Assembly: GCA_026982335.1 (NCBI GenBank)
Contig: JALSHH010000017.1
Span: 1 to 64,000 of the forward strand
Length of the DNA: 64,000 nucleotides
Reading direction: 5' to 3'
Source: Phycisphaerales bacterium
GTDB lineage: Bacteria; Planctomycetota; Phycisphaerae; Phycisphaerales; UBA1924
Shown: positions 37,944 through 55,058 of the stretch, one piece after another
Numbering within the stretch: position 1 is the stretch's first letter
How the letters are laid out: each line of letters begins with the position of its first letter
Made by a program: the position numbers and the translations under genes
Notes under the pieces: generated by a model
What the model was told of the DNA's origin: nothing
Seen by the model: the letters and a program-made list of their open reading frames with translations, nothing else
Database searches by the model: none

Positions 37944-39893
37944 CTAAAACCCACCAAACATCACCGGCGCAAGCACCACACAGATCACCCCACATAAAAT
38001 TGTCAAAGGCCCACCAAACTTGGTGTAATCCGTCCACTTGTATCCACCAGGCCCCATCACCATCAAATTCGTCTGGTACCCGATCGGCGTTGAGAACTCA
38101 CAACTCGCCGACACCGTGATTGCCACGATAAATGGCATCGGGTTATACTGCTGTTCCAAAGCAATCCCAATCGCAATCGGGAACATCAGCACGGCTGCTG
38201 CATTGTTGGTCATCGTAGCCGTAAAGACGGTCGTGAGCAGGTAGATCGCCGCGAGCAACCCATAAGGACCAAGCGAAGCACACACCGCCACAATCGCGTG
38301 CGAAATATCGGCTGCCAACCCGGTGTTGATCATCGCCTGCCCGATTCCAAACGATGCGCCGATGACCGTCAAAATCTGAAAATCCACCCCACGCCTCGCT
38401 TGGGGTCCAGTGCAACATCGCGTCACCACCATCAACCCCGCTGCGAGCATCGCAGCCGTCATCGGCTCGAACACACTCAACGAGAGTAAAATCACCAACA
38501 AAGCCAAAATCGCCACCGCAATCCAAGCACGATCATGACGCAAAGCAGCGGGTGTTATGCGCTCATTGACCAGATAAAAATCACCAATCGATCCAAACCG
38601 ATCTGAGAAACCCTGCGGCGCTTCGAGCAAGAGGGTATCGCCGGGGCGCAATCGAATCTCACCAAGTTTGCCAGGGATCTGTTGTCCCTGACGACGCACC
38701 GCAACGACCACCGCACCGTAGCGCGTACGAATCCCCGATTGACGAATTGTCAACCCCACCAGCGATGAGTTGTTCGAAACCACCGCTTCAACGATCCGCA
38801 GGTTGGGACGATAGTGCTTGTCGGGCTGAGCATCACCACCCTCGCGACGCCCATGGGTTTCGGTCGTCGAAGGCACCAACCCCTTGATCTGCTGAAGCTC
38901 GACCACCGATTCGAGCTGACCGACAAAGACCAGCACATCGCCCTCTTGAATGACTTCCGTCGGCGAAACCGCCACAATCGAATCGTCATCCCGTTCGATC
39001 CGCGATAAAAACAGCCCCGGTAAGTTCCGCAGGTTCGCCTCCTCGACCGTCTTCCCCACAATTGGGCTCTCGGGATTGACCTTGAGCGCTGCGTGATACC
39101 CCTGCCCACGCACCTCGGCATCAGCAATCGGGTCCGTCCGCTCGGGCAATAACTTGCGCCCAAAGATCAAGATGTACGCCACCCCGAGAATCGCGATCGG
39201 TAGCCCGACCTTGGCCAGGGTGAACATCCCAAACTTGAGCGCGGGGTTATCCTCACTCACCGGCAACCCATTGCTCGTGACCTGCTCATCAGCGAGCAGC
39301 TTCGAGGTAATCACATTGGTCGAAGTCCCAATGAGTGTACACACCCCACCCAGAATCGACGCAAACGACAAAGGCATAAAAAGCCTGCTTGGCGCAATCC
39401 GACATCGTCTGGCTACGCCCGCAAGCGTCGGCAAGAACATCGCTACGATCGGCGTATTGTTTATAAATGCACTCATCGCAGCAACCGGAAGCGTCAACCG
39501 AATCTGCGCACTGCGTTCATCTTTGGGACGGCCGATCAAAACCGTGGTGATACGACTCATTGCCCCCGTCTCTTTCATCGCGGCAGCCACGATATACAAC
39601 ATCGCGACCGTAATCACCCCTTGATTGGCAAACCCCTGCACCGCCTCTTGAGGCTCGAGTACCCCAAAGATCAAAAGCACCAAAAGCACACCCATCATGA
39701 TGATGTCAGGTGCAAAACGACCCATCGCCATTGTGCCCACCATAAGCACAAGCATGATGCCGGTCAAAATGGGTTCCCAGTTGCCCAATGCGTGTGAATC
39801 CTTGCGCTGCACACCTGATCGTGCGATCAGGGGAGGGTTACTCTGCCTCTTGCCCGATCCCAAGCTCCCTGATTGCCCGGAGCAATACCCCAT
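37944..39893 (-). CDS. SLC13-family anion transporter with two RCK_C domains
   Basis: 649 residues from ATG 39893, which has GAGGA close upstream; GTG 39812 is an alternative nearer the first helix. About eleven membrane helices are split by two TrkA-C-type domains (YHAALKVNPESPIVGKTVEE and VSNNSSLVGLTIRQSG regions). Helical repeats such as FINNTPIVAMFLPTL and TMTNNAAAVLMFPIA are the SLC13/DASS signature, matching SAC1-type sulfate or other dianion transporters. Its 5' end overlaps cysQ, so it is co-expressed with cysC and cysQ; sulfate import for PAPS synthesis is the likely job. Confidence 0.85.
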   Translation of the reverse strand: MGYCSGQSGSLGSGKRQSNPPLIARSGVQRKDSHALGNWEPILTGIMLVLMVGTMAMGRFAPDIIMMGVLLVLLIFGVLEPQEAVQGFANQGVITVAMLYIVAAAMKETGAMSRITTVLIGRPKDERSAQIRLTLPVAAMSAFINNTPIVAMFLPTLAGVARRCRIAPSRLFMPLSFASILGGVCTLIGTSTNVITSKLLADEQVTSNGLPVSEDNPALKFGMFTLAKVGLPIAILGVAYILIFGRKLLPERTDPIADAEVRGQGYHAALKVNPESPIVGKTVEEANLRNLPGLFLSRIERDDDSIVAVSPTEVIQEGDVLVFVGQLESVVELQQIKGLVPSTTETHGRREGGDAQPDKHYRPNLRIVEAVVSNNSSLVGLTIRQSGIRTRYGAVVVAVRRQGQQIPGKLGEIRLRPGDTLLLEAPQGFSDRFGSIGDFYLVNERITPAALRHDRAWIAVAILALLVILLSLSVFEPMTAAMLAAGLMVVTRCCTGPQARRGVDFQILTVIGASFGIGQAMINTGLAADISHAIVAVCASLGPYGLLAAIYLLTTVFTATMTNNAAAVLMFPIAIGIALEQQYNPMPFIVAITVSASCEFSTPIGYQTNLMVMGPGGYKWTDYTKFGGPLTILCGVICVVLAPVMFGGF

Positions 39894-40869
39894 GAATCCT
39901 CGGCGGAGCACAGACAATGCCCTCGTTCTTCTCAAGACCTCGCCCATGCGAAAAATCGAGGTTGTGCCCAAAGATATCAGTCACAAAAGCACCCGACTCG
40001 CACGCAATGCAGCATCCCGCAGCATGATCCCAGATCCGCTCGACATACCCCTTACGCGTCGGTAGCCTCAAATATGCATCGGCCTGACCACGCGCAACAA
40101 CAGCATATTTGCACTGCGAATCCAATCGCGCAGGCTCACCAACTGTGCCAAGCCCGTTGGCTTCGATCCAGTCCAGAATCCGGTCCGTATCCGATACATT
40201 GCTGTGTGCCTTCTCAACCGACCCACAGACTGAGATCAGCTCGGATTCGTCATGATCGAGCCGAGTGATGCGGATCGATTCGGCATTGCCGTCATCACAC
40301 CGCGACTCCCAAACCCCCTCGCCTTTGATCGCATAATACAACGACCCATGCTTATCGCGCTCATCGAAGGGCATCGACATATCAATCGCCAAGTTCGGAC
40401 ACCCCATGACTCCAATCGTCGGCGTACCGTCCTCGATAAACCCCAAAGCCACCGCATATTGCTGATTTCGCAAAAATCCCTTCGTCCCATCAATCGGATC
40501 AAGCGTCCAGAACTTGCGGTGGGTCGTATCTCCCGCCCCCATATCAACCGCCGTGAGCACCAAATCGGGTGTTGCTTCGTCCCAGACCTCTTTGGCCGCT
40601 GCCACCACTGCGTCAAGAATCAACGCATTATCCTCATCGCGCAAGAAGGTCGAAGTTTCTTCTGCGACCATCACAAACTCGCCAATATGCTGCTTGAGCA
40701 CCATCGCCACAACCGCCTGGGCTGCATAATCGGCAACCGTCACCGGACTCTTGTCGTCCTTGGTGATCGAGCGAACGGCATCGAGATTATTTTGAACCTC
40801 CTGGCAAACAATAGATGCAACTGCGACCGCTTGGCGTCCGGCAGCAGCGTATTGGGCATGATCAATCAT
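39838..40869 (-). CDS. cysQ: 3'(2'),5'-bisphosphate nucleotidase (CysQ/HAL2 type)
   Basis: 343 residues. SPVTVADYAAQAVV, AEETS, WTLDPIDGTKGFL and a late WDHAAGCCIACESGA contain the metal-binding Asp and Glu residues of the inositol-monophosphatase-like HAL2 family. It hydrolyses 3'-phosphoadenosine 5'-phosphate (PAP), the by-product of sulfotransferases, to AMP. Position between cysC and the SLC13 gene, and near a sulfotransferase gene, fits removal of PAP made by sulfation. Confidence 0.92.
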   Translation of the reverse strand: MIDHAQYAAAGRQAVAVASIVCQEVQNNLDAVRSITKDDKSPVTVADYAAQAVVAMVLKQHIGEFVMVAEETSTFLRDEDNALILDAVVAAAKEVWDEATPDLVLTAVDMGAGDTTHRKFWTLDPIDGTKGFLRNQQYAVALGFIEDGTPTIGVMGCPNLAIDMSMPFDERDKHGSLYYAIKGEGVWESRCDDGNAESIRITRLDHDESELISVCGSVEKAHSNVSDTDRILDWIEANGLGTVGEPARLDSQCKYAVVARGQADAYLRLPTRKGYVERIWDHAAGCCIACESGAFVTDIFGHNLDFSHGRGLEKNEGIVCAPPRIHGVLLRAIRELGIGQEAE

Positions 40870-40875
40870 GACAAT

Positions 40876-41541
40876 TCACTTTCGTATGTGTGATGCGTTC
40901 TGGGGAATGATATCGTGCCTCACCAACGCTGCAACAAGCTCGTCAGCCGCTTTTTCAACATCCAACTCCCCCGTCTTCACCTCAATCTCAGGATTCACAG
41001 GCACCTCATACGGATCATCAATCCCCGTAAACCCCTTGATCTCACCCGCCCGCGCCTTCTTATAAAGCCCTTTAGGATCGCGCTGTTCGCAGATTTCGAT
41101 CGGGGTGTTGATAAAGACTTCAAGAAAAATCAGCCCGGCATCCTCATGAATCTGGCGGACCTGATCCCGGTCTTTCTGGTACGGCGAGATAAAACTCGAA
41201 ATCGTCACCACCCCCGCATCAGCAAAAAGTTTGGCCACCTCACCGATACGACGAATATTCTCTTTGCGATCGTCAGCTCCGAATCCCAAATTGGCATTGA
41301 GCCCATGCCGAACATTGTCCCCATCGAGCCGATACGCCAAAACCCCGCGAGCATTGAGGACATGCTCAAGGGCCACACCCACAGTCGATTTGCCTGATCC
41401 TGAAAGCCCAGTGAGCCAAAGCGTGCACCCTTGGTGTCCCAGAACCCGTGCTCGATCCTCTCGATTTACCTTACCGTCATGCCAAACGACATTGGTAGAC
41501 TGATTTACAGATTGCTGATTGGGGGGGTGCGAATCGCTCAA
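40876..41541 (-). CDS. cysC: adenylylsulfate (APS) kinase
   Basis: 221 residues. P-loop GLSGSGKSTVGVAL, RLDGDNVRHGLNANLGF, FISPYQKDRDQVR and KGLYKKARAGEIKGFTGID are all APS-kinase motifs. It phosphorylates APS to PAPS. Six nt separate it from cysQ. It is divergent from cysD, so both halves of the pathway share the 41542-41804 interval. The N-terminal 30 residues are hydrophilic and variable. Confidence 0.95.
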   Translation of the reverse strand: MSDSHPPNQQSVNQSTNVVWHDGKVNREDRARVLGHQGCTLWLTGLSGSGKSTVGVALEHVLNARGVLAYRLDGDNVRHGLNANLGFGADDRKENIRRIGEVAKLFADAGVVTISSFISPYQKDRDQVRQIHEDAGLIFLEVFINTPIEICEQRDPKGLYKKARAGEIKGFTGIDDPYEVPVNPEIEVKTGELDVEKAADELVAALVRHDIIPQNASHIRK

Positions 41542-41804
41542 GGCTCAATCTCCAGCGGGTGCCAGTGTATGCTCGAAATAGACAATATCGTTCAATGCCG
41601 GGACAGGCACGATTATCGGGCCTCAATCGATCGTGAATATGCGAAATCCCGGTCTATACTTCGGCTCAATAGTCCCACGAATCCCGGTTTCTCGCTCTTG
41701 AAGGGTGAAAGATCGGTCGATGGGTGAGAAAGACAGACACGAGAAGACAGGCGCAATCACGCTATTGCCTATTTGAGAAAATACCCAAGCGGAGACTTTC
41801 CCTC

Positions 41805-42743
41805 ATGACCTCGGCGACAGAACCAACCGGTGCGTCTTCACACTACAAACTCACCCACCTCAAGGCCCTCGAAGCCGAAGCCATCCACATCATGCGCGAG
41901 GTGGCCGCCCAATTCGAAAAACCCGCCCTGATGTTCTCAGGCGGAAAAGACTCCATCGTCATGGTCCGATTGGCTGAAAAAGCCTTCCGCCCCGCCAAGT
42001 TCCCCTTCCCCCTCCTCCACATTGACACCGGGCATAATTTCCCCGAAGCCCTCGCCTTCCGCGATAAACTTGTCGAAGACATCGGCGAACGACTGATCGT
42101 CCACAAGGTCCAAGACCTCATCGACCGCGGCGACGCGGCTGAGGACCCAGGGCCATTCCCCTCGCGCAACCGTGCCCAAATCCCGACACTCCTCGATGCG
42201 ATCGACAAATATCAGTTCGATGCACTCTTCGGCGGTGCCCGGCGCGACGAAGAAAAAGCACGCGCCAAAGAACGCATCTTCTCCTTTCGAGACGACTTTG
42301 GACAGTGGGACCCCAAAAACCAACGCCCCGAACTCTGGAACCTCTACAACGGCCGACACCGCATGGGCGAGAACATCCGCGTTTTCCCGATTTCGAACTG
42401 GACCGAGATGGATGTCTGGCAATACATCATGCTCGAAAATATCGAAATCCCCGGACTCTACTTCTCACACAAACGCGATGTGGTTAAACGCCGAGGCCAA
42501 CTCGTACCCATCGGCGATGACCCCTTCGGACCCCGTGACGGCGAAACTATCATCAACTGCACCGTTCGCTTCCGTACCGTCGGCGACATGAGTTGCACCG
42601 CCGCCACTGATTCGCCCGCATCAAATCTCGAAGAAATCGTCGCCGAAGTCGCCGCCGCCCGAGCATCCGAACGCGGCGCACGCATGGACGACAAAACCAA
42701 CGAAGCCGCGATGGAAGATCGCAAAAAAGAAGGATACTTCTAG
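41805..42743 (+). CDS. cysD: sulfate adenylyltransferase, small subunit
   Basis: 312 residues from ATG 41805. FSGGKDSIVMVRLAEKAF is the PP-loop; FPLLHIDTGHNFPEAL, GGARRDEEKARAKERIFSFR and FPISNWTEMDVW are CysD motifs. With CysN it makes APS from ATP and sulfate. Three nt separate it from cysN. Confidence 0.96.
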   Translation: MTSATEPTGASSHYKLTHLKALEAEAIHIMREVAAQFEKPALMFSGGKDSIVMVRLAEKAFRPAKFPFPLLHIDTGHNFPEALAFRDKLVEDIGERLIVHKVQDLIDRGDAAEDPGPFPSRNRAQIPTLLDAIDKYQFDALFGGARRDEEKARAKERIFSFRDDFGQWDPKNQRPELWNLYNGRHRMGENIRVFPISNWTEMDVWQYIMLENIEIPGLYFSHKRDVVKRRGQLVPIGDDPFGPRDGETIINCTVRFRTVGDMSCTAATDSPASNLEEIVAEVAAARASERGARMDDKTNEAAMEDRKKEGYF

Positions 42744-42746
42744 GAC

Positions 42747-44090
42747 ATGTCTGCCCAAACCCAATCCAAAACCGACTTCTCAACCGATCCCAATGCCAAC
42801 AAAGGCATGGATTTCTCTACCGACGCCTACCTCGATATGGATCTGCTCCGCTTCCTCACCTGCGGCAGCGTCGACGACGGTAAATCCACACTCATCGGTC
42901 GGCTCCTCTACGATTCAAAGTCGATCTTTGAAGACCAACTCGAAGCCGCCGAGTCTGCCTCGCTCTCGCGTGGCGATCAACGCATGGACCTCGCCCTGCT
43001 TACCGACGGGCTTCGCGCCGAGCGCGAGCAAGGCATCACCATTGATGTTGCCTATCGCTACTTCGCCACCCCAAAGCGTAAGTTCATCATCGCCGACTGT
43101 CCCGGACATGTGCAATACACCCGCAACATGGTGACCGGCGCATCGACCGCGAATCTCGCGTTGATCCTCATCGACGCCCGTCATGGCGTGATCGAACAAA
43201 CCCGCCGACACTCGTTCATCACCAGCCTCTTGCGGATTCCGCACTTGGTCGTCTGTGTGAACAAAATGGACCTTGTGGACTGGTCACAGGAAACCTACGA
43301 CAAAATCCGCGAAGAATTCGAAGAATTCGCTGCCCGCTTCGAAATCACCGACATCACCTTTGTCCCCATGTCCGCCCTCACCGGCGACAATGTCGTCAAC
43401 CGATCCCAAAATATGGATTGGTACCAAGGCCCATCATTGTTGCACCATCTTGAAAATGTGCACATCGCAGGCGATCGGGACATGATCGACCCACGCTTCC
43501 CCGTCCAATGGGTCATCCGCCCCCAAGGCGACGAACACCATGACTACCGAGGCTACGGCGGCCAAATCGCTTCAGGCGTCTTCCAAGTCGGCGACGAAAT
43601 CATCGCGCTCCCATCGGGGATGGAATCAAAAATCAAATCCATCGACATCGGAGGCGTACCTCAACCATTGGCCACCCCCCCGATGAGCGTCTCGATCCAA
43701 CTCGAAGACGACATCGACATCTCCCGTGGAGACATGCTCTGCCGACCCAACAACCAACCAACCTCAGGCCAAGATATCGACGCGATGGTCGTCTGGATGG
43801 CGGAAACCCCAATGAAGGTCGGTAAAAAATACACCGTCCGGCACACCTCTAACGAGGCCAGATGCATCATCAAAAACCTCAACTATCGGCTCGACATCAA
43901 AACCCTCCACCGGGTCGAAGAGGCAGAAGATCTCAAACTCAACGAAATCGGACGGATCGCCATCCGCACGACCAAGCCACTGTTTTATGATCCCTACCGA
44001 CAATGCCGCGTGACGGGCAGTTTCATCATCGTTGATGAACAGACCAACAACACCGTCGGCGCCGCGATGATCATCGGCGAAACAAGCTAA
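42747..44090 (+). CDS. cysN: sulfate adenylyltransferase, large (GTPase) subunit
   Basis: 447 residues. GTPase motifs are GSVDDGKSTLIGRLLYD (G1), DCPGHVQYTRNM (G3) and NKMDLV (G4), followed by EF-Tu-like beta domains. The enzyme uses GTP hydrolysis to drive APS formation with CysD. It has no C-terminal APS-kinase domain, which is supplied by the separate cysC gene across the divergent promoter. No cysH, cysI or cysJ reductase gene lies in the window. Confidence 0.96.
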   Translation: MSAQTQSKTDFSTDPNANKGMDFSTDAYLDMDLLRFLTCGSVDDGKSTLIGRLLYDSKSIFEDQLEAAESASLSRGDQRMDLALLTDGLRAEREQGITIDVAYRYFATPKRKFIIADCPGHVQYTRNMVTGASTANLALILIDARHGVIEQTRRHSFITSLLRIPHLVVCVNKMDLVDWSQETYDKIREEFEEFAARFEITDITFVPMSALTGDNVVNRSQNMDWYQGPSLLHHLENVHIAGDRDMIDPRFPVQWVIRPQGDEHHDYRGYGGQIASGVFQVGDEIIALPSGMESKIKSIDIGGVPQPLATPPMSVSIQLEDDIDISRGDMLCRPNNQPTSGQDIDAMVVWMAETPMKVGKKYTVRHTSNEARCIIKNLNYRLDIKTLHRVEEAEDLKLNEIGRIAIRTTKPLFYDPYRQCRVTGSFIIVDEQTNNTVGAAMIIGETS

Positions 44091-44137
44091 CAGATAAACA
44101 TACCCAGTTCGTGCGCTTCACCGCCTATCCTTGACCC

Positions 44138-44869
44138 ATGTCAAAGAATATGGACATCCGCATTCTCTCGATCGGCACCCTCGCTGCTCATCCGCTTTGG
44201 AATGAGCGCCATCCCGTCCGCACTGGACATTCCACCACCACCTTGATCCAAACAGGAGACGCCAAAATCATCGTCGATCCTGGTCTCCCCGCTCCCGCCC
44301 TCAAAGCCCGACTCGGCGAACGCGCCGGCTTGACCCCCGAAGTAATCACCCATGTCTTCCTCACCAGCTTCAATCCCGAATGCCGACGCGGAATCGGAAT
44401 CTTTGACAAAGCAGACTGGCTCATCGGCGAACAAGAACGCGAAGCCGTCGGCGTACCCATTGCCCAATCCCTCGCACGCCTGGCTCAAAACAAAGAGCTC
44501 GCCGAACACGCAGACGAAAAGTTCGATGAATCCCAGCAATCCATGCTCAAAATCCTCCAACAGGATGTCGCCGAACTCGCCCGTTGTCAACCCGCCCCCG
44601 ATTCAATCATCGACAATGTCGATCTCTTTCCGCTGCCGGGATTCAGCCCCGGACTCTGCGGGCTGCTCCTCGCCGAACTCTCACGCACCACCCTGATCTG
44701 CGGCGATGCCATCCCAACCGCCGAACACCTCGATCAAGGCAAAGTCCTCCCCACCTGTGCCAATCGCAAACTCGCCCAAGAAAGTTTCAAAGAGGCCATC
44801 GAAATCGCCGATGCGCTCATCCTCGGGCGTGATAACATCATCATCAACCCCACCAAAAGCGGAATCTAA
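44138..44869 (+). CDS. metallo-beta-lactamase-fold protein with missing metal ligands
   Basis: 243 residues. IIVDPGLPAPALKARL and ITHVFLTS match the start of MBL-fold hydrolases, but the HxHxDH signature expected next reads SFNPECRRGIGIF, and the usual PGHTPG reads LPGFSPGLCG. CGDAI retains the second metal-site Asp region. It therefore keeps the fold pattern but has lost the first histidine cluster and is likely a non-catalytic or altered homolog. It sits 47 nt after cysN and before the sulfotransferase gene, which suggests a link with sulfate activation. Confidence 0.7.
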   Translation: MSKNMDIRILSIGTLAAHPLWNERHPVRTGHSTTTLIQTGDAKIIVDPGLPAPALKARLGERAGLTPEVITHVFLTSFNPECRRGIGIFDKADWLIGEQEREAVGVPIAQSLARLAQNKELAEHADEKFDESQQSMLKILQQDVAELARCQPAPDSIIDNVDLFPLPGFSPGLCGLLLAELSRTTLICGDAIPTAEHLDQGKVLPTCANRKLAQESFKEAIEIADALILGRDNIIINPTKSGI

Positions 44870-44933
44870 ACGCATTTGAATACCCCGCACAACCCAGCCC
44901 AGAGCGGCAACGATAAGACGATAATAAATACCC

Positions 44934-46433
44934 ATGGCACTCAATCCACAACGCGCCAAACAGCTCTACGCCGTGCTTACCAAGATCAACACAGCGATCG
45001 AAGCAGAGCAAACCACCTCGGCGCTGAAAAAACTTGAGGAACTCAACACCAAATATCCCAACGAACCCATGATCCTCACTCTCTTGGGCAAGGTCAATTC
45101 CAAAATGGGACGACACGCCGAAGCCATCGAAAGCTTCGAAAAAGCGGTCAAAGCCGATGCCAAAAACGCCGACACCCGGTTCCAGCTCGCCCTCGCACTC
45201 CAAAAAGGCGGCCGATACGACGAAGCACTCGTCGAATATGAACGGGCACTCTACTACAACCCAAACCACTTCCTCGCCCTGCGCCACAAATGTTCGGTGC
45301 TCACCGACCTTGACCGCAACGAAGAAGCACTCAAAACATGGAAGACCCTGTGTAAATCAAGCCAAGGCCAAAGCACTGATCCATCCATACAACTCGCAAT
45401 CGCCATCTCGGGGGCAAGACTCGCTCCCAAGGTCATTGACCCCAAAGAATCCATTGCCAACTTGCAGCGATATGTCGAAAACGAATCATGCGAAAAAAGC
45501 ATGCGCATCGCCGGATACTGGCAACTCGGCCGACTCTGTGATCACCTCAAAGCACATGACGATGCCTTTGCCTATTGGAAGAAAAGCAAAGAACTCAACA
45601 AAAAACAATGGGTGCCCCAGGACCACTCCAAACGAATCGATCAACTGATCACCTGCTGGACAAGCAATGCCAATATTCCATTCTCAAGCACCGACGGCTC
45701 ACGGCTGATCTTCATCGTCGGCATGATGCGCTCTGGAACCTCACTCACCGAACAAATGATCGCCCAAACTCAAGGCGTTACACCCGGCGGCGAGATGAAT
45801 GCCATCTCGCGCCAAATCGCGCCGATCGAACCCAACACCAAAGAGTTTGTCCCCTACACCCGCCCATTGCCCTACACCAAACGGCTCTATACCAAGCCCA
45901 TAATCGAAAAAATGGCCCAGACTGCGATGCAAATGTACAACCAGGTTGCACGCGATGGGCGCATCACCGATAAGCAACCATTCAACTACGCTTATGTACC
46001 TTTGATTGCCCATATGTTTCCAGGCTGCAAGATCATCCACTGCGTACGCAATCCGATGGATTGCTGCCTCTCAAACTACACCCAAGCCTTCTCGCGCCCA
46101 CACCCGCAAACCCACGATCTCTACTGGATTGGACGATATTACCGCGACTACGAACGGCTCATGCAAGCTTGGCATACACTCCCCGAAGTAGACATGATCA
46201 ACCTCCACTACGAAGAACTCGTCACCGACCCAGAAACCCAGTCCAAACGCGTGATGGAGTTTCTCGGGCTCGAATGGAATCAAAACATCCTCGACTTCCA
46301 CAAATCCCCCCGCACCGTCTCCACTGCTTCGCGCGACCAGGTCCGCAAGCCCGTCTACACCAGCTCCGTCCAAAAATACAAAAACTACGAACACCACCTC
46401 GACCAACTCAAATGCGGACTGGGCATCAAATAA
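44934..46433 (+). CDS. TPR-domain sulfotransferase
   Basis: 499 residues. The N-terminal half consists of TPR repeats (for example MGRHAEAIESFEKAVKADAK and GGRYDEALVEYERALYYNP). The C-terminal half has the PAPS 5'-phosphosulfate loop IVGMMRSGTSLTEQM and DKQPFNYAYVPLI with IHCVRNPMDCCLSNY, the 3'-phosphate motif, typical of Sulfotransfer_3 proteins with N-terminal TPRs. It would transfer sulfate from PAPS, made by CysDNC next door, to a carbohydrate or tyrosyl acceptor. No signal peptide, so cytoplasmic. Confidence 0.9.
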   Translation: MALNPQRAKQLYAVLTKINTAIEAEQTTSALKKLEELNTKYPNEPMILTLLGKVNSKMGRHAEAIESFEKAVKADAKNADTRFQLALALQKGGRYDEALVEYERALYYNPNHFLALRHKCSVLTDLDRNEEALKTWKTLCKSSQGQSTDPSIQLAIAISGARLAPKVIDPKESIANLQRYVENESCEKSMRIAGYWQLGRLCDHLKAHDDAFAYWKKSKELNKKQWVPQDHSKRIDQLITCWTSNANIPFSSTDGSRLIFIVGMMRSGTSLTEQMIAQTQGVTPGGEMNAISRQIAPIEPNTKEFVPYTRPLPYTKRLYTKPIIEKMAQTAMQMYNQVARDGRITDKQPFNYAYVPLIAHMFPGCKIIHCVRNPMDCCLSNYTQAFSRPHPQTHDLYWIGRYYRDYERLMQAWHTLPEVDMINLHYEELVTDPETQSKRVMEFLGLEWNQNILDFHKSPRTVSTASRDQVRKPVYTSSVQKYKNYEHHLDQLKCGLGIK

Positions 46434-47357: not shown

Positions 47358-48239
47358 TCAACAAGCCTGATCCGGGTCGTTAAGTATTTCAGTCAGTTTT
47401 TCAATAAGATCACTGATCATTTCTTCGGTCAATTTGAGATCTTCGAGGACTTCTGTTTGAATCTTTGGGTTCGGATTATCGAGCTTCATCCCGCCTTTGA
47501 CCATCGAGGCGATCACATCGGCTGCATGCACAACATAAACAATCTTCTTACACTCCGATGGTGCCTGTGTCGGGTTATGGTGAAAACCGGCAGAGGCGAT
47601 AAACGGTGCGGGGAATTTCCACTTCTCGCAGAGTCCCTTGCCAAAGTCCTGATGATTGGCGCCAAAGATTTCTTCTTCGTTGTCAATCAACGAAACGCTC
47701 GGGTTTCCATTTTCGTCAATATTGCACCGATCAATCGCATCAATAAGTTTTGAGCGATCGTACTGCATTTCAACCATCACCCCGATGTCATGGATCAATC
47801 CTGCAAGGTACGCCTCATCGCCAAGCCCCATCCCCAGCCGATCCGAAAGTATCTTGCTTGCAATCGCTACCGCATTGGAATGATCCCATAAGTCCTTGGC
47901 ACTACAAAACGGCGTAAGCTCGCCTCCGCGGAACAACTTGGCTAATGATGCTGCAATCGCGATGTTCTTGACCGCGTTGAGTCCGAGCATCACAATCGCT
48001 CGGTTAATCGAAGCAATCTGCCCAGGCAAGCCGTAAAACGATGAGTTGACGACTTTGAGAATTCGTGAGCACAACGCCGGATCATTACTGATAACCTCAT
48101 GCAAATCTTGGGCCGAGCTCGAAGGATCTTCCACAAGATCGATAATCTTGAGCGTCACCTCTGGTAGTGTTGCAATATGCGAAATCTCTTTCAGTGCACC
48201 GGCAACAGATGATTCGCGTTGTTCCTGAGTCGTCGTCAT
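47358..48239 (-). CDS. HDOD-domain signalling protein
   Basis: 293 residues from ATG 48239. ISHIATLPEVTLKIIDLVED opens the HDOD fold, followed by VISNDPALCSRILKVVNSSF and INRAIVMLGLNAVKNIA. LAGLIHDIG is present as in active HD domains, though HDOD proteins usually do not hydrolyse nucleotides. No receiver or GGDEF domain is attached. Such proteins act in two-component and motility control, and this one lies near the flagellar glycosylation genes. The last 50 residues form a charged helix. Confidence 0.88.
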   Translation of the reverse strand: MTTTQEQRESSVAGALKEISHIATLPEVTLKIIDLVEDPSSSAQDLHEVISNDPALCSRILKVVNSSFYGLPGQIASINRAIVMLGLNAVKNIAIAASLAKLFRGGELTPFCSAKDLWDHSNAVAIASKILSDRLGMGLGDEAYLAGLIHDIGVMVEMQYDRSKLIDAIDRCNIDENGNPSVSLIDNEEEIFGANHQDFGKGLCEKWKFPAPFIASAGFHHNPTQAPSECKKIVYVVHAADVIASMVKGGMKLDNPNPKIQTEVLEDLKLTEEMISDLIEKLTEILNDPDQAC

Positions 48240-48356
48240 TCTTCGCTCCCCGTATAGAAATAGGTGGTTTTGGTATTGTCCACATCGACCCACAACGAAC
48301 ACCACTTTGGCCTTCGTCCGACAATCACACAAAAATCGTCACCGTTACTCAGGAGT

Positions 48357-48404: not shown

Positions 48405-49538
48405 TCAATACACACAGCGCTTGCGAATAAGATCTGGACAAGCCAAGTCAGTCGCGCCAAGAATTGCTGCGATGCGCTCGCCAGCGTGTCCATCGCCAAA
48501 TGGATGTATTGATCGTGCATAGTCCGGATTTGTTATTGCATCAAACGCCTGCCGAATCGAATCCACATCCTCCTTTGCGTGCATCGTCCACCCATCACAT
48601 CGCTCGCGTCCAGATTGCCGGTTTCCAATATCCACACTCGGACACCCAATTGCGCTGCACTCGATCAACCCCGCTGACGAGTTGCCCACCAACGCCCCAC
48701 CCACATTGCCAACTCGTTTGAGCAGCCCAACAAATTGTGTCCGCACAAGTTGAGGCAAGACCTGCACATCAATCGGCGCCGATTCAATTGCATCCATAAT
48801 CCCGCGTCGCCCAGGATCAAGATTTGGATGTAAAACCAACACCCGTTTGTCCGAAAAAGCGTGAAAAATAAGCCCCATCACTGCCTGTTCTGCTTCATCC
48901 TCACGCCCGATCGGGTGCATCAAAATCACCACCTCAGGCGACCCCAACTCCGCAAACGCCCCGTCACCCATCGCCGGAATTTCATCGAGTCCATCAATCG
49001 CAGGCGAACCGACCACATGCACACTGTTCGAATCCTCGCCCATCTTGATAATCCGCTCCGCGCTCGTTTGCGTCACAGGAAAATGGATATGAGCAAGCTT
49101 CGTAATCGCATGGCGCATCGCCTCGTCCGCTACCCCTTCCGCCCGATCGCCACCATGAATATGCGCCAATGGATACCCGCCAATGCTCGCTGCACTCGCC
49201 GCAGCGAACGCCTCGATCCGATCCCCAAGCACGACGACACAATCCGGCTCATTCATTTCAAATGATCGCCCAAAACGAGCAATCCCTTTACCCAACGCCT
49301 CGACATCCGCCAACCGCCCGACCTTGCCCACTGTCTGCATCGGGATCGTGTCCGCAATCCCAAACTCCGCCTTCACCTCCCGAAAAGTAACTGCAGGCTG
49401 CACCAAATGTGACCCAGCAACCACCACCCGTAGCTCACAGCTTGTTTGTGCATGGACTGCATACATCACAGGCCGAAGCAACCCAAACTCCGCCCGCGTC
49501 CCGGTAACAATCATGATCTTCTTCAACTCGTCAGTCAT
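48405..49538 (-). CDS. neuC: NeuC-type hydrolysing nucleotide-sugar 2-epimerase
   Basis: 377 residues. IMIVTGTRAEFGLLRPVMYA, VVLGDRIEAFAAASAA and HIHGGDRAEGVADEAMRHAI are NeuC/NnaA signatures of the UDP-N-acetylglucosamine 2-epimerase family; it releases the 2-epimer sugar needed by NeuB. In sialic acid synthesis the product is ManNAc; in legionaminic acid synthesis the 6-deoxy-di-N-acetyl analogue (LegG). Start overlaps the neuB stop by 4 nt; last gene of the unit. Confidence 0.9.
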   Translation of the reverse strand: MTDELKKIMIVTGTRAEFGLLRPVMYAVHAQTSCELRVVVAGSHLVQPAVTFREVKAEFGIADTIPMQTVGKVGRLADVEALGKGIARFGRSFEMNEPDCVVVLGDRIEAFAAASAASIGGYPLAHIHGGDRAEGVADEAMRHAITKLAHIHFPVTQTSAERIIKMGEDSNSVHVVGSPAIDGLDEIPAMGDGAFAELGSPEVVILMHPIGREDEAEQAVMGLIFHAFSDKRVLVLHPNLDPGRRGIMDAIESAPIDVQVLPQLVRTQFVGLLKRVGNVGGALVGNSSAGLIECSAIGCPSVDIGNRQSGRERCDGWTMHAKEDVDSIRQAFDAITNPDYARSIHPFGDGHAGERIAAILGATDLACPDLIRKRCVY

Positions 49539-50623
49539 TCAAAATCTTCTTCCACCATCGGCACATCCGCCTCGATTTCCCGGCAAACCGTGCGGCCAAC
49601 AACGGTATCCAACTCGTATGCCAACATCCCCGTACCCGGGCGTTTGATCGTCAGCATCTCTCGCGTGATGATGGTACCTGGCGCAATGGCACGCGCACTG
49701 ATGATTGATTGCCGCGAGACTTCCCGCACATCGCGCTCGCAATCAAGAACTCGTTTTTCGGTTGGTCCAAAATAAGTCAAAAATAGCTCCTTCGACCGAA
49801 CCCCTTTGAGCACTTCAACACTGTCATCATTGAAATAAGCATTCTGCCCATATCGCACATATGCCGCGAAATCCTCTGGATTCAACGAAGCGGCATGATC
49901 TGGGCCGGCAGCGCTCGTGTCATAAGTAAAATGTTTCTCAAAAATGCACACATTGAGTGGAGTAAGCAACCGGACGGGATGGTGCGAAACGGTATGGTCG
50001 CTGTATCCAATTGGACAATCCAACACAGCCATCAATGCGTCACACCCACCCAAAGCTGCATCTTCAAGCGCAGCCGGATAACAACTCACGCACTGCAACA
50101 CCGCCAACCGATCCTTCGCACCCTCAAGCCACCCAGCCGCCCGTACCACCTCATCAAGCGTGCTCGCTCCCGTGCTCACAATCATCGGCTTGCCCGTTGC
50201 CATCAACGCCTCGAGCAAAGGGCGGTTCACAATGTCCGGGCTCGCCGATTTATACGCATCCCACGCCAAAGTCTCGGCCACCTTGACCAACTCCGTGCTA
50301 AACACCGTCACAATCGCATGAATACCGCGTTCGTGCGCACGATCAACGACTTGCGCCATCTCATCAATCGTCAACTCCAACCTTCGCAACATCTCGATCG
50401 AGTCTGTCTCGCCCGCATTCCTCTGATACGCTGCGAGTTTGGCCGCCTTGCTCATCAGCCGATCTGTCTCAAAGAACTGCAGCTTCACTGCATCGGCCCC
50501 GGAATCCGCCGCCGCATCGGTCAACTCCAACGCGCGCGAAACCTCACCATCATGATTCACCCCGATCTCAGCGATGATGTATGGCCCATGGTTGAGTCCA
50601 ATCTTCCGATCACCGATCTGCAT
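49535..50623 (-). CDS. neuB: sialic/legionaminic acid synthase with SAF domain
   Basis: 362 residues. YIIAEIGVNHDGEVSRALEL, AVKLQFFE, VSTGASTLDEV and CPIGYSDHT belong to the NeuB TIM barrel; the last 70 residues are a SAF/antifreeze-like domain (RAIAPGTIITREMLTIKRPG). It condenses phosphoenolpyruvate with an N-acylated hexose to a nonulosonic acid. Whether the substrate is ManNAc or a bacillosamine derivative cannot be told; no LegB/LegC/LegH genes are in the window, and NeuC-NeuB-NeuA alone suffice for CMP-Neu5Ac. Overlaps neuA by 14 nt. Confidence 0.92.
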   Translation of the reverse strand: MQIGDRKIGLNHGPYIIAEIGVNHDGEVSRALELTDAAADSGADAVKLQFFETDRLMSKAAKLAAYQRNAGETDSIEMLRRLELTIDEMAQVVDRAHERGIHAIVTVFSTELVKVAETLAWDAYKSASPDIVNRPLLEALMATGKPMIVSTGASTLDEVVRAAGWLEGAKDRLAVLQCVSCYPAALEDAALGGCDALMAVLDCPIGYSDHTVSHHPVRLLTPLNVCIFEKHFTYDTSAAGPDHAASLNPEDFAAYVRYGQNAYFNDDSVEVLKGVRSKELFLTYFGPTEKRVLDCERDVREVSRQSIISARAIAPGTIITREMLTIKRPGTGMLAYELDTVVGRTVCREIEADVPMVEEDFE

Positions 50624-51344
50624 GAACCACTCTCTCCTTTAATATCGCATCCGCGACGACCTGATCAATCCGCGAATCGATATCAATCACATCACCTTCA
50701 CCTGTGATAATCCCTCGCCGATCATTCCCCAAAAAACAGTGGGGGCCATCCGCCGCGTTCAATCTTTTCATCAATGCTTCAGGCGTCAACGCAATCACGC
50801 CGCCATCGGGAATCTGTGCGTCAGGCAAGTCTTGTCGACGGAAACAATTGTGATACAACACTTCACCTTCCCAAGGCAACACTGACCCATCATTGGCAAC
50901 TTTCACCATCCACCATGGGTGATGCTTACCCACCGCTGCAAAACTCTGCACACTATCGCACCGAGATTCAACCAACAACTTCACTGCATCATCAATCAGC
51001 GACTCAGGGCGAACCGGTACATTGGCATACAAAATCACAATCGGCACATCGGGCGATCCAACTGCTTCATACGCATGCCTTGCAGCATCATCGATTATCG
51101 CAGTGTCATGAGCAAGCCGGGCAGGGCGATTGACAACCCTACACCCAATTCTGTGTGCACATTCGTTAACATCAGCATCATCCGATGACACCACAATCGT
51201 CCCGACTGATCGTGCACCCATCGCTGCCTCGATCGTCCATTGCACACAAGGTTTGCCCGCGAGCATCGCCGAGTTTTTGCCCGGCAACCCCTTCGACCCC
51301 GCCCTTGCCAAAATAATTGCCAATGCACCAGAATCAATCATCAT
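50610..51344 (-). CDS. neuA: CMP-nonulosonic acid cytidylyltransferase
   Basis: 244 residues. ALAIILARAGSKGLPGKN is the nucleotidyltransferase motif, VVSSDDADV and RPARLAHD follow as in NeuA/LegF enzymes. It activates the nonulosonic acid with CTP. The start directly abuts the stop of the Maf fusion gene (ATG 51344 or 51341). Expected partner: the glycosyltransferase Maf, whose gene precedes it. Confidence 0.92.
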   Translation of the reverse strand: MMIDSGALAIILARAGSKGLPGKNSAMLAGKPCVQWTIEAAMGARSVGTIVVSSDDADVNECAHRIGCRVVNRPARLAHDTAIIDDAARHAYEAVGSPDVPIVILYANVPVRPESLIDDAVKLLVESRCDSVQSFAAVGKHHPWWMVKVANDGSVLPWEGEVLYHNCFRRQDLPDAQIPDGGVIALTPEALMKRLNAADGPHCFLGNDRRGIITGEGDVIDIDSRIDQVVADAILKERVVHADR

Positions 51345-54300
51345 TCACGCTGCACTCTCACCGGCATCAACCAACCCCAAAGGCTTGGGCTCCGTCCGCA
51401 CCGATCGCATCGTACCGAGCATCTTTTGATACGCTTGTTCAACTCCCTCATCAAAGACATTGATCTGTCCAATGGGCCGACCACGACAATCGACCACCAT
51501 ACCATCACATTGAATATACATCGTTGAACGATCGAGCTGTTTCTGTCTTGCGCTTGGAATTGGAAGCGGATAAATTCGCTGATCAACTGCATGCCCAGGC
51601 AATGGGTCAATCACCGCCGACCCACAAAGCATCATCCACTTGTCGTAAAATTGTTCAATCTCTTCATACACAGCATCACAACGCGTAATCCGCGGCACAA
51701 ACCATGGATAACTCATTCCCCCCTGTGCACGCATTCTTTGAAGCTCATCAAAAATCATCTGAATCCGGACATACATCTCTTCAAACCGGTCCATTCCTGT
51801 CAACGCTGCATAAGTTCGTCGGGACTCGGCAAGCACATCAACCGACAAAATATCAATCCCTGACTCAAGCAATTCATCAGCGTCGACTCCTTCACGGAGC
51901 AAGTCTGTCCGAAACTCAACACTGGCAACCCCATCTTCTTTGGCCAAATGAATAAACCCAATTGCATCAGGGTGCATCAATGGATCGCCCACACCATCGA
52001 AGGCAACCGCAATATCTTCGCGCAACTTGCTTGCTTGAGTAAAAATCCTGTGTGCCTGCGCAAGGGTCAGTACCGGACGCTCCACAGGCTCAATGGATTG
52101 GCGTTTCCACAATCCCCAACTCCCGTTGACCAATCGCCCGGTACATGTTTCAAGCACAATCGTCCGCGGACACGATCGGGCAACACGGTGATGAGCCTGC
52201 ACATAGGCTTCTACACACGCAACCCCTTCGTCACGCACCGAGACTTGCTGATATGCCTGGCGCATTGCTTGGATCCGTTCCGACGAATCAGCGATCATCC
52301 GCACACCGGCATCGCGCATTGCTGGAGCAATCTCCACACACACACCTTTGGCAATCGGATCAAACTGAGGCGTAATCGGAATATACCCCACCAACGAACC
52401 AAAAGTCGCAAAATGATTTCCACCTTCGCCACATGACTGGGCCAGTGAATCAATCGTCACCCGATCAACCACCATCGTCCCGAGCCCAGGGACCGCCTGT
52501 GAAAAAGCAATCCGCTTTTGCGTGTCTTGGCGCCGATACCGATCCACAGTTTGATCCACAAGCCGAGGATCAATCATCGCCCAGTCGCCCCCAACAATCG
52601 CGCAGCTGTCAATCTCATAAGCGTGCATCACTGAGGAAAGCAAACCAAACTCAACTTGCTCATCATACACGCTGAGCATCCCGATCGACCCACGCCAGCA
52701 TTCGCTCGATTGCACCCGGGCACCCCCGACACGGCAAGTTCGCCGACGGAATCGAGTTGGATCAACCCCCGCAATCTGCACCGGCAAACGCAATGTCAGC
52801 GATCCAATAAACCCACGAATCGTTTCTGGTTCTGGCGTTACGATCGTAATCCCATCAAGTTCCTTGGTCTGATCGAGTCGGGCGAGTGTCAACTCAAAAA
52901 TATTGAGTCCGCCGACAATCGGAACATCGAGTCCTCGGCGTGTACCCAAGCCACCAAACTCAGGATCGGCAAACACCACCGCATGCACCCGCGATCGTGA
53001 GGCGACATCATCCTGTAAACCCACAACTGAATTTGAATCTCTCTTGAAATCAGGAAAATGTATTTTTGTTTCATGAAGGCTATTGGTTTGCTTCGGCGCT
53101 TTACCAAGCAAAGTGGACTTGGCGCTACGGAGTTGATCGGCAACCGATTTGGCTGCGTCGCGAGTCCACTCGACATTGGTAATGTCACGCTGAATTTGAA
53201 GCTCCTGACGATCGAGCACGCTCGTATCAGTGCTCATCTCAATCACACGATCTTTCTTCATTCGATTCAGCACCCCAACTTGATTCACTGTCTGAACCAA
53301 ACCAAAGGCAACAGACAATTCCATCACTCGTTCCCCAATGGACTGCACCTCAACGATCAGCTTGTTGATCTTGCGTTGATCCCCGCGATGAGCGATCATT
53401 GCATTGAGCAACCCAATCGATTGCTCACAGAGATAGATGATCCGCTCGCAATCTTCGATGGTCGAATCGAGTCGGTTGTATATCTTATTCTTCCGCTGTT
53501 CATTGCCCAAAGTGCGGTCGGTTGTTGCAGGGATGATGATCGGATCGGGCGAGCCATAGTGTGCAACCGCCTCTTTGAATGTCATAATCTTTGTATGTTG
53601 TTTGCGCACGCCCCCTTGGGTTGCGTCAATCACCGTCAACCCCTCGAGCGCGTCCTTCTGGAAACTCGCTTCAAACTGTGCCAAGTAGGTTGACATCTGC
53701 TCGTCAGCATAAATCGAGCGCCCATAGACATCCATCTTCTTGCGCAATAACCCTTTCATCCGAACAATCCGTTGCCATTCCATCATCTCGAGCGTGTTGT
53801 GTGCATTGAGCTCACCCGCCCAGACCTGATGAATCGCTGCTCCAGCCGAATAGTACTGCCCATCGGTAAACCCAAGATCTTGCCCGATGAAGATCACCGG
53901 ATCACACCCGAGATGCCGGGCGAAGTAGTAACACAGATGTGCCACCGTCGCCCCCATCGGTAGCGTGCCCATCTCGCGAGCCAACGCTTCGCCGAGTAGA
54001 TTATCGAGCATTTTGTCGCTTACACAGAGCACTTCGCCAGGAAACGCATCAAGAATGGCAGGATTGGCCTTCGCCTCAACCACCAGTCGAACTCCCTCGA
54101 CATCAGCCGGGGTAAGCCCCTCGTAGAACCGTTTGCTGATCTCGTGATAATCCAGTGCTGCCACAAAGTCGGGTTTGATTCCGCGCTTGAGCATCTGCTT
54201 GAGCACAGTCTGCACCGCGATGACCACGACCGAGCTTCGCACCTTCGGATCTTTGAGTAGATCAATATTGCGTTTCAAACTTGGTCCCGCTGAAACCACC

Positions 54301-55058
54301 ACCGCAGATTTGCCCTTACATACATCCTTGAGCACCTCTATCCCTGCGCTGGTGGTGTAATAGTCCAGATTCATCAACGCATTGCGAAAACTCGTCTGCG
54401 AGTTGGCCAAAGTCGTAATCACATGAGTTCGCGTGGCTTTGAGCACATCGTGGAAAATATTCCCAAACCGAGTTCCTTCATCACCGAGTCGCCGAATGCT
54501 CGGCGGATGATTGAGTATCTCCACACCAAGCCCAATCACTGCTTCGATCCCTTCAAATATCTGACTCAATGCTGAGGGGTCATCTGGATTGGTCACCAGG
54601 AAAAATCGCTTAGAATCAAACATTTCTGTATAGTCAACTCGCTCAAGTACCGCACGAAGTAGTCCAAGATCAGACTCGAAGCAAATCACCACTCCACACG
54701 AACCCAACCGTTCGAGCAGTACACCACAGTGATACCCCACCCCAAATCCGACCACCGCACAACACGCCACTTTGGATGGGTCAAGTTGTTGGGCAAATCG
54801 GCGCGCTTCGTGCATCGGCTTGCGCTTCGATGCCAGTGCTACCCCATCGAGCTCAATACTCAACACACCTTCGTCCGTTTCTACAAACCGAGCACCAGGA
54901 TGAGATTGCGCTGTCTCGATTACTTTGGCCGCTCTCGGATTGTGCCGCCCAAGTGCTGCAAGATTTTTCATAAGTACTGCGTTGGAAGCCGCTCCCTGAT
55001 CACCATCATCAGGGGTATTTCCGTTCGAACACAGCGCATTGAGCTGAGCATAATCCAT
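51345..55058 (-). CDS. three-domain protein: Maf (DUF115) glycosyltransferase, nucleotidyltransferase-like, cysteine-less radical-SAM/SPASM-like
   Basis: 1237 residues from ATG 55058; GTG/TTG starts up to 55097 are possible. Domain 1 (about 190-640) has the motility accessory factor core SAVVVSAGPSLKRNIDLL and VIFIGQDLGFTDG, proteins that transfer nonulosonic acids to flagellin Ser/Thr. Domain 2 (about 691-940) resembles cytidylyl/MobA-type nucleotidyltransferases (HAVVFADPEFGGLG, VPIVGGLNIFELTLARL). Domain 3 (about 965-1200) follows the radical-SAM plan: IVLETCTGRLVNGSWGLWK in place of the CxxxCxxC strand, AFDGVGDPLMHPD and a SPASM-like end STMYIQCDGMVVDCRG, but the three cluster cysteines are absent. 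Head of the neuA-neuB-neuC operon. Domain 1 is sure; domains 2 and 3 are inferred. Confidence 0.88.
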   Translation of the reverse strand: MDYAQLNALCSNGNTPDDGDQGAASNAVLMKNLAALGRHNPRAAKVIETAQSHPGARFVETDEGVLSIELDGVALASKRKPMHEARRFAQQLDPSKVACCAVVGFGVGYHCGVLLERLGSCGVVICFESDLGLLRAVLERVDYTEMFDSKRFFLVTNPDDPSALSQIFEGIEAVIGLGVEILNHPPSIRRLGDEGTRFGNIFHDVLKATRTHVITTLANSQTSFRNALMNLDYYTTSAGIEVLKDVCKGKSAVVVSAGPSLKRNIDLLKDPKVRSSVVVIAVQTVLKQMLKRGIKPDFVAALDYHEISKRFYEGLTPADVEGVRLVVEAKANPAILDAFPGEVLCVSDKMLDNLLGEALAREMGTLPMGATVAHLCYYFARHLGCDPVIFIGQDLGFTDGQYYSAGAAIHQVWAGELNAHNTLEMMEWQRIVRMKGLLRKKMDVYGRSIYADEQMSTYLAQFEASFQKDALEGLTVIDATQGGVRKQHTKIMTFKEAVAHYGSPDPIIIPATTDRTLGNEQRKNKIYNRLDSTIEDCERIIYLCEQSIGLLNAMIAHRGDQRKINKLIVEVQSIGERVMELSVAFGLVQTVNQVGVLNRMKKDRVIEMSTDTSVLDRQELQIQRDITNVEWTRDAAKSVADQLRSAKSTLLGKAPKQTNSLHETKIHFPDFKRDSNSVVGLQDDVASRSRVHAVVFADPEFGGLGTRRGLDVPIVGGLNIFELTLARLDQTKELDGITIVTPEPETIRGFIGSLTLRLPVQIAGVDPTRFRRRTCRVGGARVQSSECWRGSIGMLSVYDEQVEFGLLSSVMHAYEIDSCAIVGGDWAMIDPRLVDQTVDRYRRQDTQKRIAFSQAVPGLGTMVVDRVTIDSLAQSCGEGGNHFATFGSLVGYIPITPQFDPIAKGVCVEIAPAMRDAGVRMIADSSERIQAMRQAYQQVSVRDEGVACVEAYVQAHHRVARSCPRTIVLETCTGRLVNGSWGLWKRQSIEPVERPVLTLAQAHRIFTQASKLREDIAVAFDGVGDPLMHPDAIGFIHLAKEDGVASVEFRTDLLREGVDADELLESGIDILSVDVLAESRRTYAALTGMDRFEEMYVRIQMIFDELQRMRAQGGMSYPWFVPRITRCDAVYEEIEQFYDKWMMLCGSAVIDPLPGHAVDQRIYPLPIPSARQKQLDRSTMYIQCDGMVVDCRGRPIGQINVFDEGVEQAYQKMLGTMRSVRTEPKPLGLVDAGESAA

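Follow-up and report, generated by a model that had tools for sequence, protein, structure and literature searches.

A Maf-type glycosyltransferase fused to cytidylyltransferase-like and radical-SAM-like domains without the cluster motif in a Phycisphaerales bacterium

Why does a flagellar glycosyltransferase of the Maf type carry two further domains that resemble enzymes, one of them a radical S-adenosylmethionine (SAM) enzyme without its cluster motif? This question is raised by a gene in a 64,000-nucleotide stretch of DNA (the window) from a Phycisphaerales bacterium, contig JALSHH010000017.1 of assembly GCA_026982335.1. We analysed the gene computationally, together with its relatives in planctomycetes and spirochetes, and consider it likely that the gene product unites in one chain a Maf flagellin glycosyltransferase and its non-catalytic partner in the transfer of nonulosonic acid to flagellin. 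The gene and its parts are as follows:

51345..55058, minus strand: fused protein with Maf, cytidylyltransferase-like and radical-SAM/SPASM-like parts; 1237 amino acids (aa), without internal stop
53079..55058, minus strand: Maf glycosyltransferase part, residues 1-660 (NCBIfam PseD/Maf match and Foldseek match to 5mu5)
53862..54383, minus strand: central MptE-like/Maf_flag10 domain, residues 226-399 (PF01973, E 1.1e-35)
52998..53078, minus strand: linker, residues 661-687, predicted to be disordered (predicted local distance difference test, pLDDT, <50 at model residues 621-647)
52224..52946, minus strand: pseudo-cytidylyltransferase domain, about residues 705-945 (Foldseek match to 6oew, hhalign match to NeuA)
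52689..52718, minus strand: conserved motif R781...W788-R789-G790, invariant in 30 fused proteins
51582..52223, minus strand: radical-SAM-like barrel, about residues 946-1159 (Foldseek; TIGR04321 positions 183-483 over residues 915-1213)
52107..52151, minus strand: place of the lost CxxxCxxC motif, E970-W984, reading ETCTGRLVNGSWGLW (alignments with locus L119 and spirochete members)
51978..51995, minus strand: retained GxGDPL motif, G1022-L1027, conserved in 30 fused proteins
51384..51581, minus strand: SPASM-like end, about residues 1160-1225, with one of the four SPASM cysteine positions filled

Domains of the fused protein

The gene begins with an ATG at 55058, with a GGAG stretch just 5′ of it, and this start is kept in the nearest orthologue (L062, ...MDYAQLNALCS). 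The N-terminal part had been named Maf in the original prediction, and this identity holds: PF01973 matches at 123.4 bits, above its cut-off of 34.6, and in a structure model of residues 41-1237 (30 sequences; pLDDT 87, predicted TM score, pTM, 0.79) the first-ranked PDB match by Foldseek was 5mu5, the crystal structure of the Magnetospirillum Maf (E 3.7e-18, 720 alignment columns). The domain placing relative to 5mu5 is not matched closely, as seen from a TMt of 0.44 and a root-mean-square deviation of 12.3. A phmmer search of the Maf part against PDB sequences did not find 5mu5 and returned 6-hydroxymethylpterin kinase entries only. The NCBIfam PseD/Maf model matches residues 104-650 (E 2.4e-23) with 82.6 bits, under its cut-off of 670; by this score the Maf part is a homologue of the PseD/Maf model and not that equivalog. 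Residues G258, S260, D303, H305, H374, Q393 and D394 of this part are invariant in 30 fused proteins, and the PF01973 match is the single one in the window's genome, which is 92% complete. Residues 661-705, which include the linker, are 56% identical to the nearest orthologue, vs. 83% for the Maf part.

Like the Maf proteins of Clostridium botulinum (CbMaf) and Magnetospirillum (5mu5), the fused protein has the PF01973 domain and the matching fold, and its gene lies beside neuABC in a genome with flagellins. Unlike them, it has about 550 extra residues, which form two further folded domains. As the Maf of known structure is a three-domain protein according to the excerpts available of its description (PMC11339370), these two domains represent a new architecture as far as the literature found goes. 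Our literature search returned no paper on a fusion of Maf with this module, and none linking a SPASM domain with Maf or spirochete flagella among the matches listed; the combination of "motility accessory factor" with "radical SAM" gave Campylobacter papers which, by their listing, bore no sign of a link.

The C-terminal module was modelled separately (window 51348-53018, 68 sequences) as a confident single fold, with pLDDT 93.3 and pTM 0.92. The two folds that had been named from the sequence beforehand were both recovered in this model, so the proposal withstands the condition set to refute it. Its first half resembles the Leptospira cytidylyltransferase 6oew (Foldseek E 1.1e-8, TMt 0.72), in agreement with the MobA/cytidylyl-like fold proposed earlier, and CMP-Kdo synthetase was matched as well. 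In a profile search of PDB sequences 6oew was again the nearest (9.4e-7), and hhalign aligned the domain with the NeuA encoded next to the fused gene (93.8%, E 1.8e-7); none of the Pfam sequence models, including PF02348, matched this domain of the fused protein. NeuA has an N-terminal loop with Arg and Lys, ARAGSKGLPGKN, which we take to be catalytic, and the aligned stretch of the fused protein reads ADPEFGGLGTRRG. Since the loop residues of NeuA are replaced, the cytidylyltransferase-like half probably no longer activates sugars, and the earlier suggestion that the module supplies the activated sugar is unlikely. Other residues of this half are strictly kept: besides R781, W788, R789 and G790, also D799 and W826 are invariant in the 30 fused proteins and D825 is invariant or nearly so. 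The R-W-S..WRGG pattern is found in most of the relatives in which module and Maf are encoded separately (split members).

The second half of the module is a radical SAM partial barrel, as had been expected from the order of its strands, with Foldseek matches to SuiB, viperin, BlsE, SkfB, DesII, MoaA and PqqE. By profile search its nearest PDB sequences are BtrN (8.8e-12) and BlsE (9.9e-9), enzymes acting on sugar-like or nucleoside substrates. This distribution of matches bears on a reading in which the module is chiefly acceptor-side: the pseudo-radical-SAM/SPASM half would be a binding site for flagellin (or a flagellin-chaperone pair), Maf would owe its substrate choice to it, and the cytidylyltransferase-like half would be structural only. 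We regard it as rather unlikely: peptide-modifying radical SAM enzymes (SuiB, SkfB, PqqE) among the fold matches speak in its favour, whereas the nearest sequence relatives BtrN and BlsE do not, and the invariant residues R781, W788, R789 and G790 sit in the other half. The acceptor-side reading also gains from FlmG of Caulobacter, a cytoplasmic flagellin glycosyltransferase whose extra domain binds flagellin and confers substrate choice, as stated in the available excerpts of its description (PMC7591256). FlmG may serve as a precedent for a modular flagellin glycosyltransferase; it is likened here by description and not by sequence, and its extra domain is N-terminal, whereas that of the fused protein is C-terminal and made of pseudo-enzyme folds.

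The fusion, the neu operon and flagellin

The original prediction had placed the fused gene at the head of neuA-neuB-neuC, and coordinates and profile matches bear out this operon order:

50610..51344, minus strand: NeuA/PseF-type cytidine monophosphate (CMP)-nonulosonate synthetase (CTP_transf_3 E 2.8e-17, PseF E 2.2e-20)
49535..50623, minus strand: NeuB nonulosonate synthase (PF03102 E 2e-59, NeuB_NnaB E 2.6e-80)
48405..49538, minus strand: NeuC UDP-GlcNAc 2-epimerase (TIGR03568, 282 bits, above the cut-off of 235.9)

The ATG of NeuA (51344) abuts the stop codon of the fused gene, and the NeuA/NeuB and NeuB/NeuC genes overlap by 14 and 4 bases, respectively; because of this arrangement the four genes look translationally coupled. 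NeuC scores above its cut-off, and NeuB (269.9 bits vs. 399.65 for NeuB_NnaB) and NeuA (73.2 bits vs. 205.7 for PseF) match below theirs, so the sugar of the operon is probably a nonulosonic acid, perhaps a Neu5Ac-like one. The probable task of the fused enzyme is to attach sialic-acid-like sugars to flagella.

Directly behind the neu genes and on the same strand the window encodes an HDOD-domain protein (47358-48332). A few kb from the glycosylation operon, at 39838-46433, lies a sulfate-activation set consisting of an inositol-monophosphatase/CysQ-like protein, an APS kinase, a CysD-like PAPS-reductase-domain protein and a CysN-like GTPase (the Cys names are assigned by resemblance). It adjoins a tetratricopeptide-repeat protein with a sulfotransferase domain (PF13469), with which it may perhaps form a sulfation system.

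The module was searched for in 61 genomes of relatives, 57 of which gave a match, and all 21 genus members have it; both counts include the window's own genome. Across 392 genomes of the phylum, 73 gave a match; many of these matches were weak and confined to the radical SAM part. Of the 73 genomes, 42 were counted as members, among them 9 from the same family accepted by their hits only; 2 were rejected and 29 were left outside the count. The 61 loci examined were the window and 60 retrieved stretches, each 7-20 kb long; 59 were accepted as members, 32 of them fused and 27 split. The two others (L119, L120) were rejected as genuine radical SAM proteins with CxxxCxxC and with no match to the cytidylyltransferase-like profile. 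L118, also with no match to this profile, was kept for its radical-SAM half and its Maf neighbour. Since open-frame length by itself exaggerates fusion where GC content is high, three loci with Maf in another frame (L105, L108, L111) were counted as split.

In 21 of the 27 split loci Maf is encoded directly upstream on the same strand; module and Maf are thus either one gene or immediate neighbours in 53 of the 59 loci. On a quick tree with several long branches the fused rows form one clade that arises by one change. A frameshift or a missed stop as the origin of the long reading frame is ruled out by these 32 fused loci of a single clade, and the survey of domain fusions in Phycisphaerae and other planctomycetes shows that the fusion is real. 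Among the loci examined, the fusion is the rule in four families of the order (f1-f4) and not an oddity of one genome; families f5 and f6 have the split form. In L114 (7616-12722) the split module lies between two open reading frames (ORFs) that both match the Maf profile. No relatives of the module were found in viral_contigs; 25 plasmid records matched, with the radical-SAM half only in the 20 matches listed.

NeuA follows the fused gene in 30 of 32 fused loci. In the exceptions, L089 (genome G042) and L100 (genome G054), Maf is shortened and the stretch contains neither NeuB nor NeuC.

The window's genome has four flagellin matches. Flagellin was found in 221 of the 392 genomes of the phylum and in 40 of the 42 module-bearing planctomycetes (Fisher p 8e-9, kinship ignored). 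These 42 are the own genome, the 9 same-family genomes accepted by their hits only, and two groups with ORFs examined, 17 genomes from the order and 15 from farther away. Within family and order (31 genomes) module and flagellin occur together in 25, both are missing in 4, the module stands alone in 2 and flagellin alone in none (Fisher p 5e-4, kinship ignored).

The spirochete cousin and the loss of the cluster

The layout of the module had been said to recall SPASM-containing proteins of spirochetes. This is correct as regards homology to TIGR04321 (spiroSPASM), seen in profile and hhalign matches, and does not extend to membership, as the tree gives a sister clade. The window protein reaches 37.7 bits with TIGR04321 (hidden Markov model (HMM) positions 183-483 of 510), and the curated cut-off of 250 is not reached. 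Ten divergent split relatives score 71-159 bits, all below 250 and several over most of the length, with the match in L104 spanning HMM positions 75-506. The N-terminal domains of the planctomycete and spirochete proteins align by hhalign at 96.8% (E 2.3e-10, 195 columns), and the planctomycete modules and TIGR04321 separate into two clades with 98-99 SH-aLRT. On the basis of these alignments and the tree, the module is a sister clade of TIGR04321, homologous along its length, and not a member. Weak matches of divergent split members to TIGR04347, a family named in NCBIfam as a haloarchaeal pseudo-SAM/SPASM protein, were compared by similarity alone.

The two families have the same domain order, cytidylyltransferase-like followed by radical-SAM/SPASM, along the homologous module. 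TIGR04321 differs from the window's module in that none of the spirochete loci inspected has it fused to Maf, and in keeping the SPASM cysteines and sometimes CxxxCxxC. Spirochetes were first reached by a FlaB pattern, with TIGR04321 in 27 of the 30 genomes chosen. In a draw of 198 spirochete genomes it was found in 181 (170 above the cut-off), and PF01973, which is Maf-type by domain match only, in 190. All 181 genomes with TIGR04321 carry PF01973, and the 8 without PF01973 are also without TIGR04321 (Fisher p 4.8e-10, kinship ignored). Most spirochete genomes listed have three or four PF01973 matches vs. one in the window's genome.

The next ORF downstream of TIGR04321 encodes, by length alone, a product of 328-391 aa in 21 of 26 stretches. 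The ORFs directly downstream in the three annotated operons, L271 (10734-11687), L283 (10626-11603) and L287 (10707-11729), encode 317-340 aa; they have no NCBIfam match, and those of L271 and L287 no Pfam match. By eye the product looks GT-A-like, with a GGFD...YWQ..DFG.R stretch in those inspected. Two genes downstream of TIGR04321 all three operons encode a cytidylyltransferase, which stands alone in L287 and in L271 and L283 belongs to an 825-880 aa protein that also has PseG-like and methyltransferase parts. Because a cytidylyltransferase gene lies near the module in each phylum, a CMP-sugar context is common to both. In the excerpts available of a review, PseI of Treponema denticola is described as critical for flagellin production (PMC9862357); the accessible part of a Treponema flagellin paper held nothing of use on glycosylation genes (PMC9481697).

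To follow the cluster ligands, we used the 59 planctomycete modules and a non-random set of 75 spirochete rows (26 loci obtained via the FlaB pattern, and 29 best-scoring and 20 hand-picked lower-scoring ones of the 198-genome draw). SL293, at a contig end, stands outside the tree, and SL295 has an unresolved base given as X. The planctomycete module shares fold and sequence-profile matches with radical SAM/SPASM enzymes such as SuiB, BlsE, DesII and BtrN; it differs from them in having neither CxxxCxxC nor, in the fused form, a complete set of SPASM cysteines. The absence of the cluster motif, remarked on earlier from the window alone, holds throughout: CxxxCxxC occurs in 0 of 59 planctomycete modules vs. 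23 of 75 spirochete members (24 counting one with an insertion), and an ordinary radical SAM enzyme is thereby ruled out. The full set of four SPASM cysteines is found in 73 of the 75 spirochete members. Of the 27 split planctomycete members 17 have all four and 22 have three or more; none of the 32 fused members has all four, and two is their maximum. SL328 (G494) has no SPASM cysteines, and a stop inside its match is probably the cause. These counts make it extremely unlikely that cysteines at other places keep the radical SAM half working as an iron-sulfur enzyme; the split members with up to four SPASM cysteines would allow it, whereas no C...C..C pattern is found in any planctomycete module and the fused members fall short of the full SPASM set.

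Mapped on the quick tree by parsimony, the cluster state changed at least 10 times within the spirochetes; if no regain is assumed, there were 15 spirochete losses, or 10 with branches <80 collapsed. Half-decayed motifs with one or two cysteines left are seen in SL277 and SL285. The family looks like a natural series of stepwise loss of chemistry, from a full cluster motif over a decaying motif and SPASM cysteines only to few or none.

Loss of the ligands is not accompanied by relaxed evolution of the planctomycete protein. Compared with the nearest orthologue (NG86), the Maf part has a dN/dS of 0.09; the two halves of the module give 0.19 (cytidylyltransferase-like) and 0.10 (radical-SAM-like). 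The values of 0.10-0.19 indicate that the module, about 75% identical to this orthologue, is under purifying selection. We therefore consider it very unlikely that the module is functionless, decaying baggage of an ancestral fusion. Two sets of cluster ligands have been lost, and members differ in how long the module's end is and in its sequence, as would be expected of a relic; against this stand the low dN/dS, the presence of the module in 21 of 21 genus genomes and in 57 of 61 relatives, and its confident single fold. Since the cluster motif is lost, together with most SPASM ligands in the fused form, and purifying selection is kept, the module most likely works without radical chemistry.

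An active enzyme of another kind, e.g., one modifying the CMP-sugar or the transferred sugar without a cluster through the GxGDPL pocket, appears improbable. In this motif, which we take to correspond to the SAM-binding GGE motif of radical SAM enzymes, D1025 is invariant and the other positions are nearly so in the 30 fused proteins. Its conservation after cluster loss, together with that of D799/D825 and the low dN/dS, would fit such an activity, and for those spirochete members in which CxxxCxxC is intact a radical reaction on that sugar is conceivable. Yet we recognised in the module no motif that catalyses a known non-radical reaction, and two SPASM cysteines out of four are the most that any of the 32 fused members has left.

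A non-radical partner of Maf

In the reading we prefer, the fused protein is a Maf flagellin glycosyltransferase with a non-catalytic partner, whose ancestor would have been a CMP-sugar-synthetase-like domain joined to a radical SAM/SPASM domain. The radical SAM cluster motif was lost in planctomycetes, and most SPASM ligands too in the fused form. The pseudo-cytidylyltransferase pocket may hold the CMP-nonulosonate made by NeuA and present this donor to Maf, with the pseudo-radical-SAM half serving as a scaffold and possibly as a dock for flagellin. Among the possible duties of such a partner we tentatively favour donor handling; docking of flagellin ranks after it, and a residual non-radical activity is possible. 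The two mechanisms suggested earlier, handing over of the activated sugar and use of the degenerate barrel for binding, stay foremost among the candidate ideas. Domain identities, operon, conserved gene order, the single fusion clade, the pattern of ligand loss, selection and co-occurrence are computed results that speak for this reading; the partner role, donor handling and docking are inferred.

Several observations weigh against a non-catalytic partner dedicated to flagellin. The GxGDPL motif is retained, which could mean residual ligand chemistry. Flagellin without a module match is seen in six genomes of the class (family f9) and in the majority of the other flagellin-bearing planctomycetes drawn. 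Conversely, the flagellin-negative genomes G042 and G054 keep the module in the reduced loci L089 and L100, a state that may reflect decay after the loss of flagella, or reuse. Six of 27 split loci have no Maf in the fetched stretch (L110 and L112 lie on contigs of 9 and 12 kb). In the spirochetes, no Maf was found beside the gene in 26 stretches of 4-20 kb (searched with a planctomycete-built profile, some near a contig end), 9 of 198 genomes have PF01973 and no TIGR04321 match at E 1e-40, and the spirochete N-terminal domain compared directly with the NeuA profile by hhalign gives 2.7%.

More tentatively, TIGR04321 and its planctomycete sister may be one family of Maf partners, in which repeated loss of the radical cluster (about 10 or more times in spirochetes and once at the planctomycete base) left the protein itself in place. 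The enduring role of such a family would be a non-radical one in Maf-dependent flagellin glycosylation, either handling the donor or helping assembly, and nearly all spirochetes would need it. Our literature search, with preprints and most subscription journals outside its scope, found no paper naming TIGR04321 or spiroSPASM by accession or family name.

TIGR04321 is carried by 181 of the 198 spirochete genomes drawn, and its function is uncharacterised. The planctomycete fusion and gene order provide this family with its first concrete partner, Maf, and therefore with a testable job in flagellin glycosylation.

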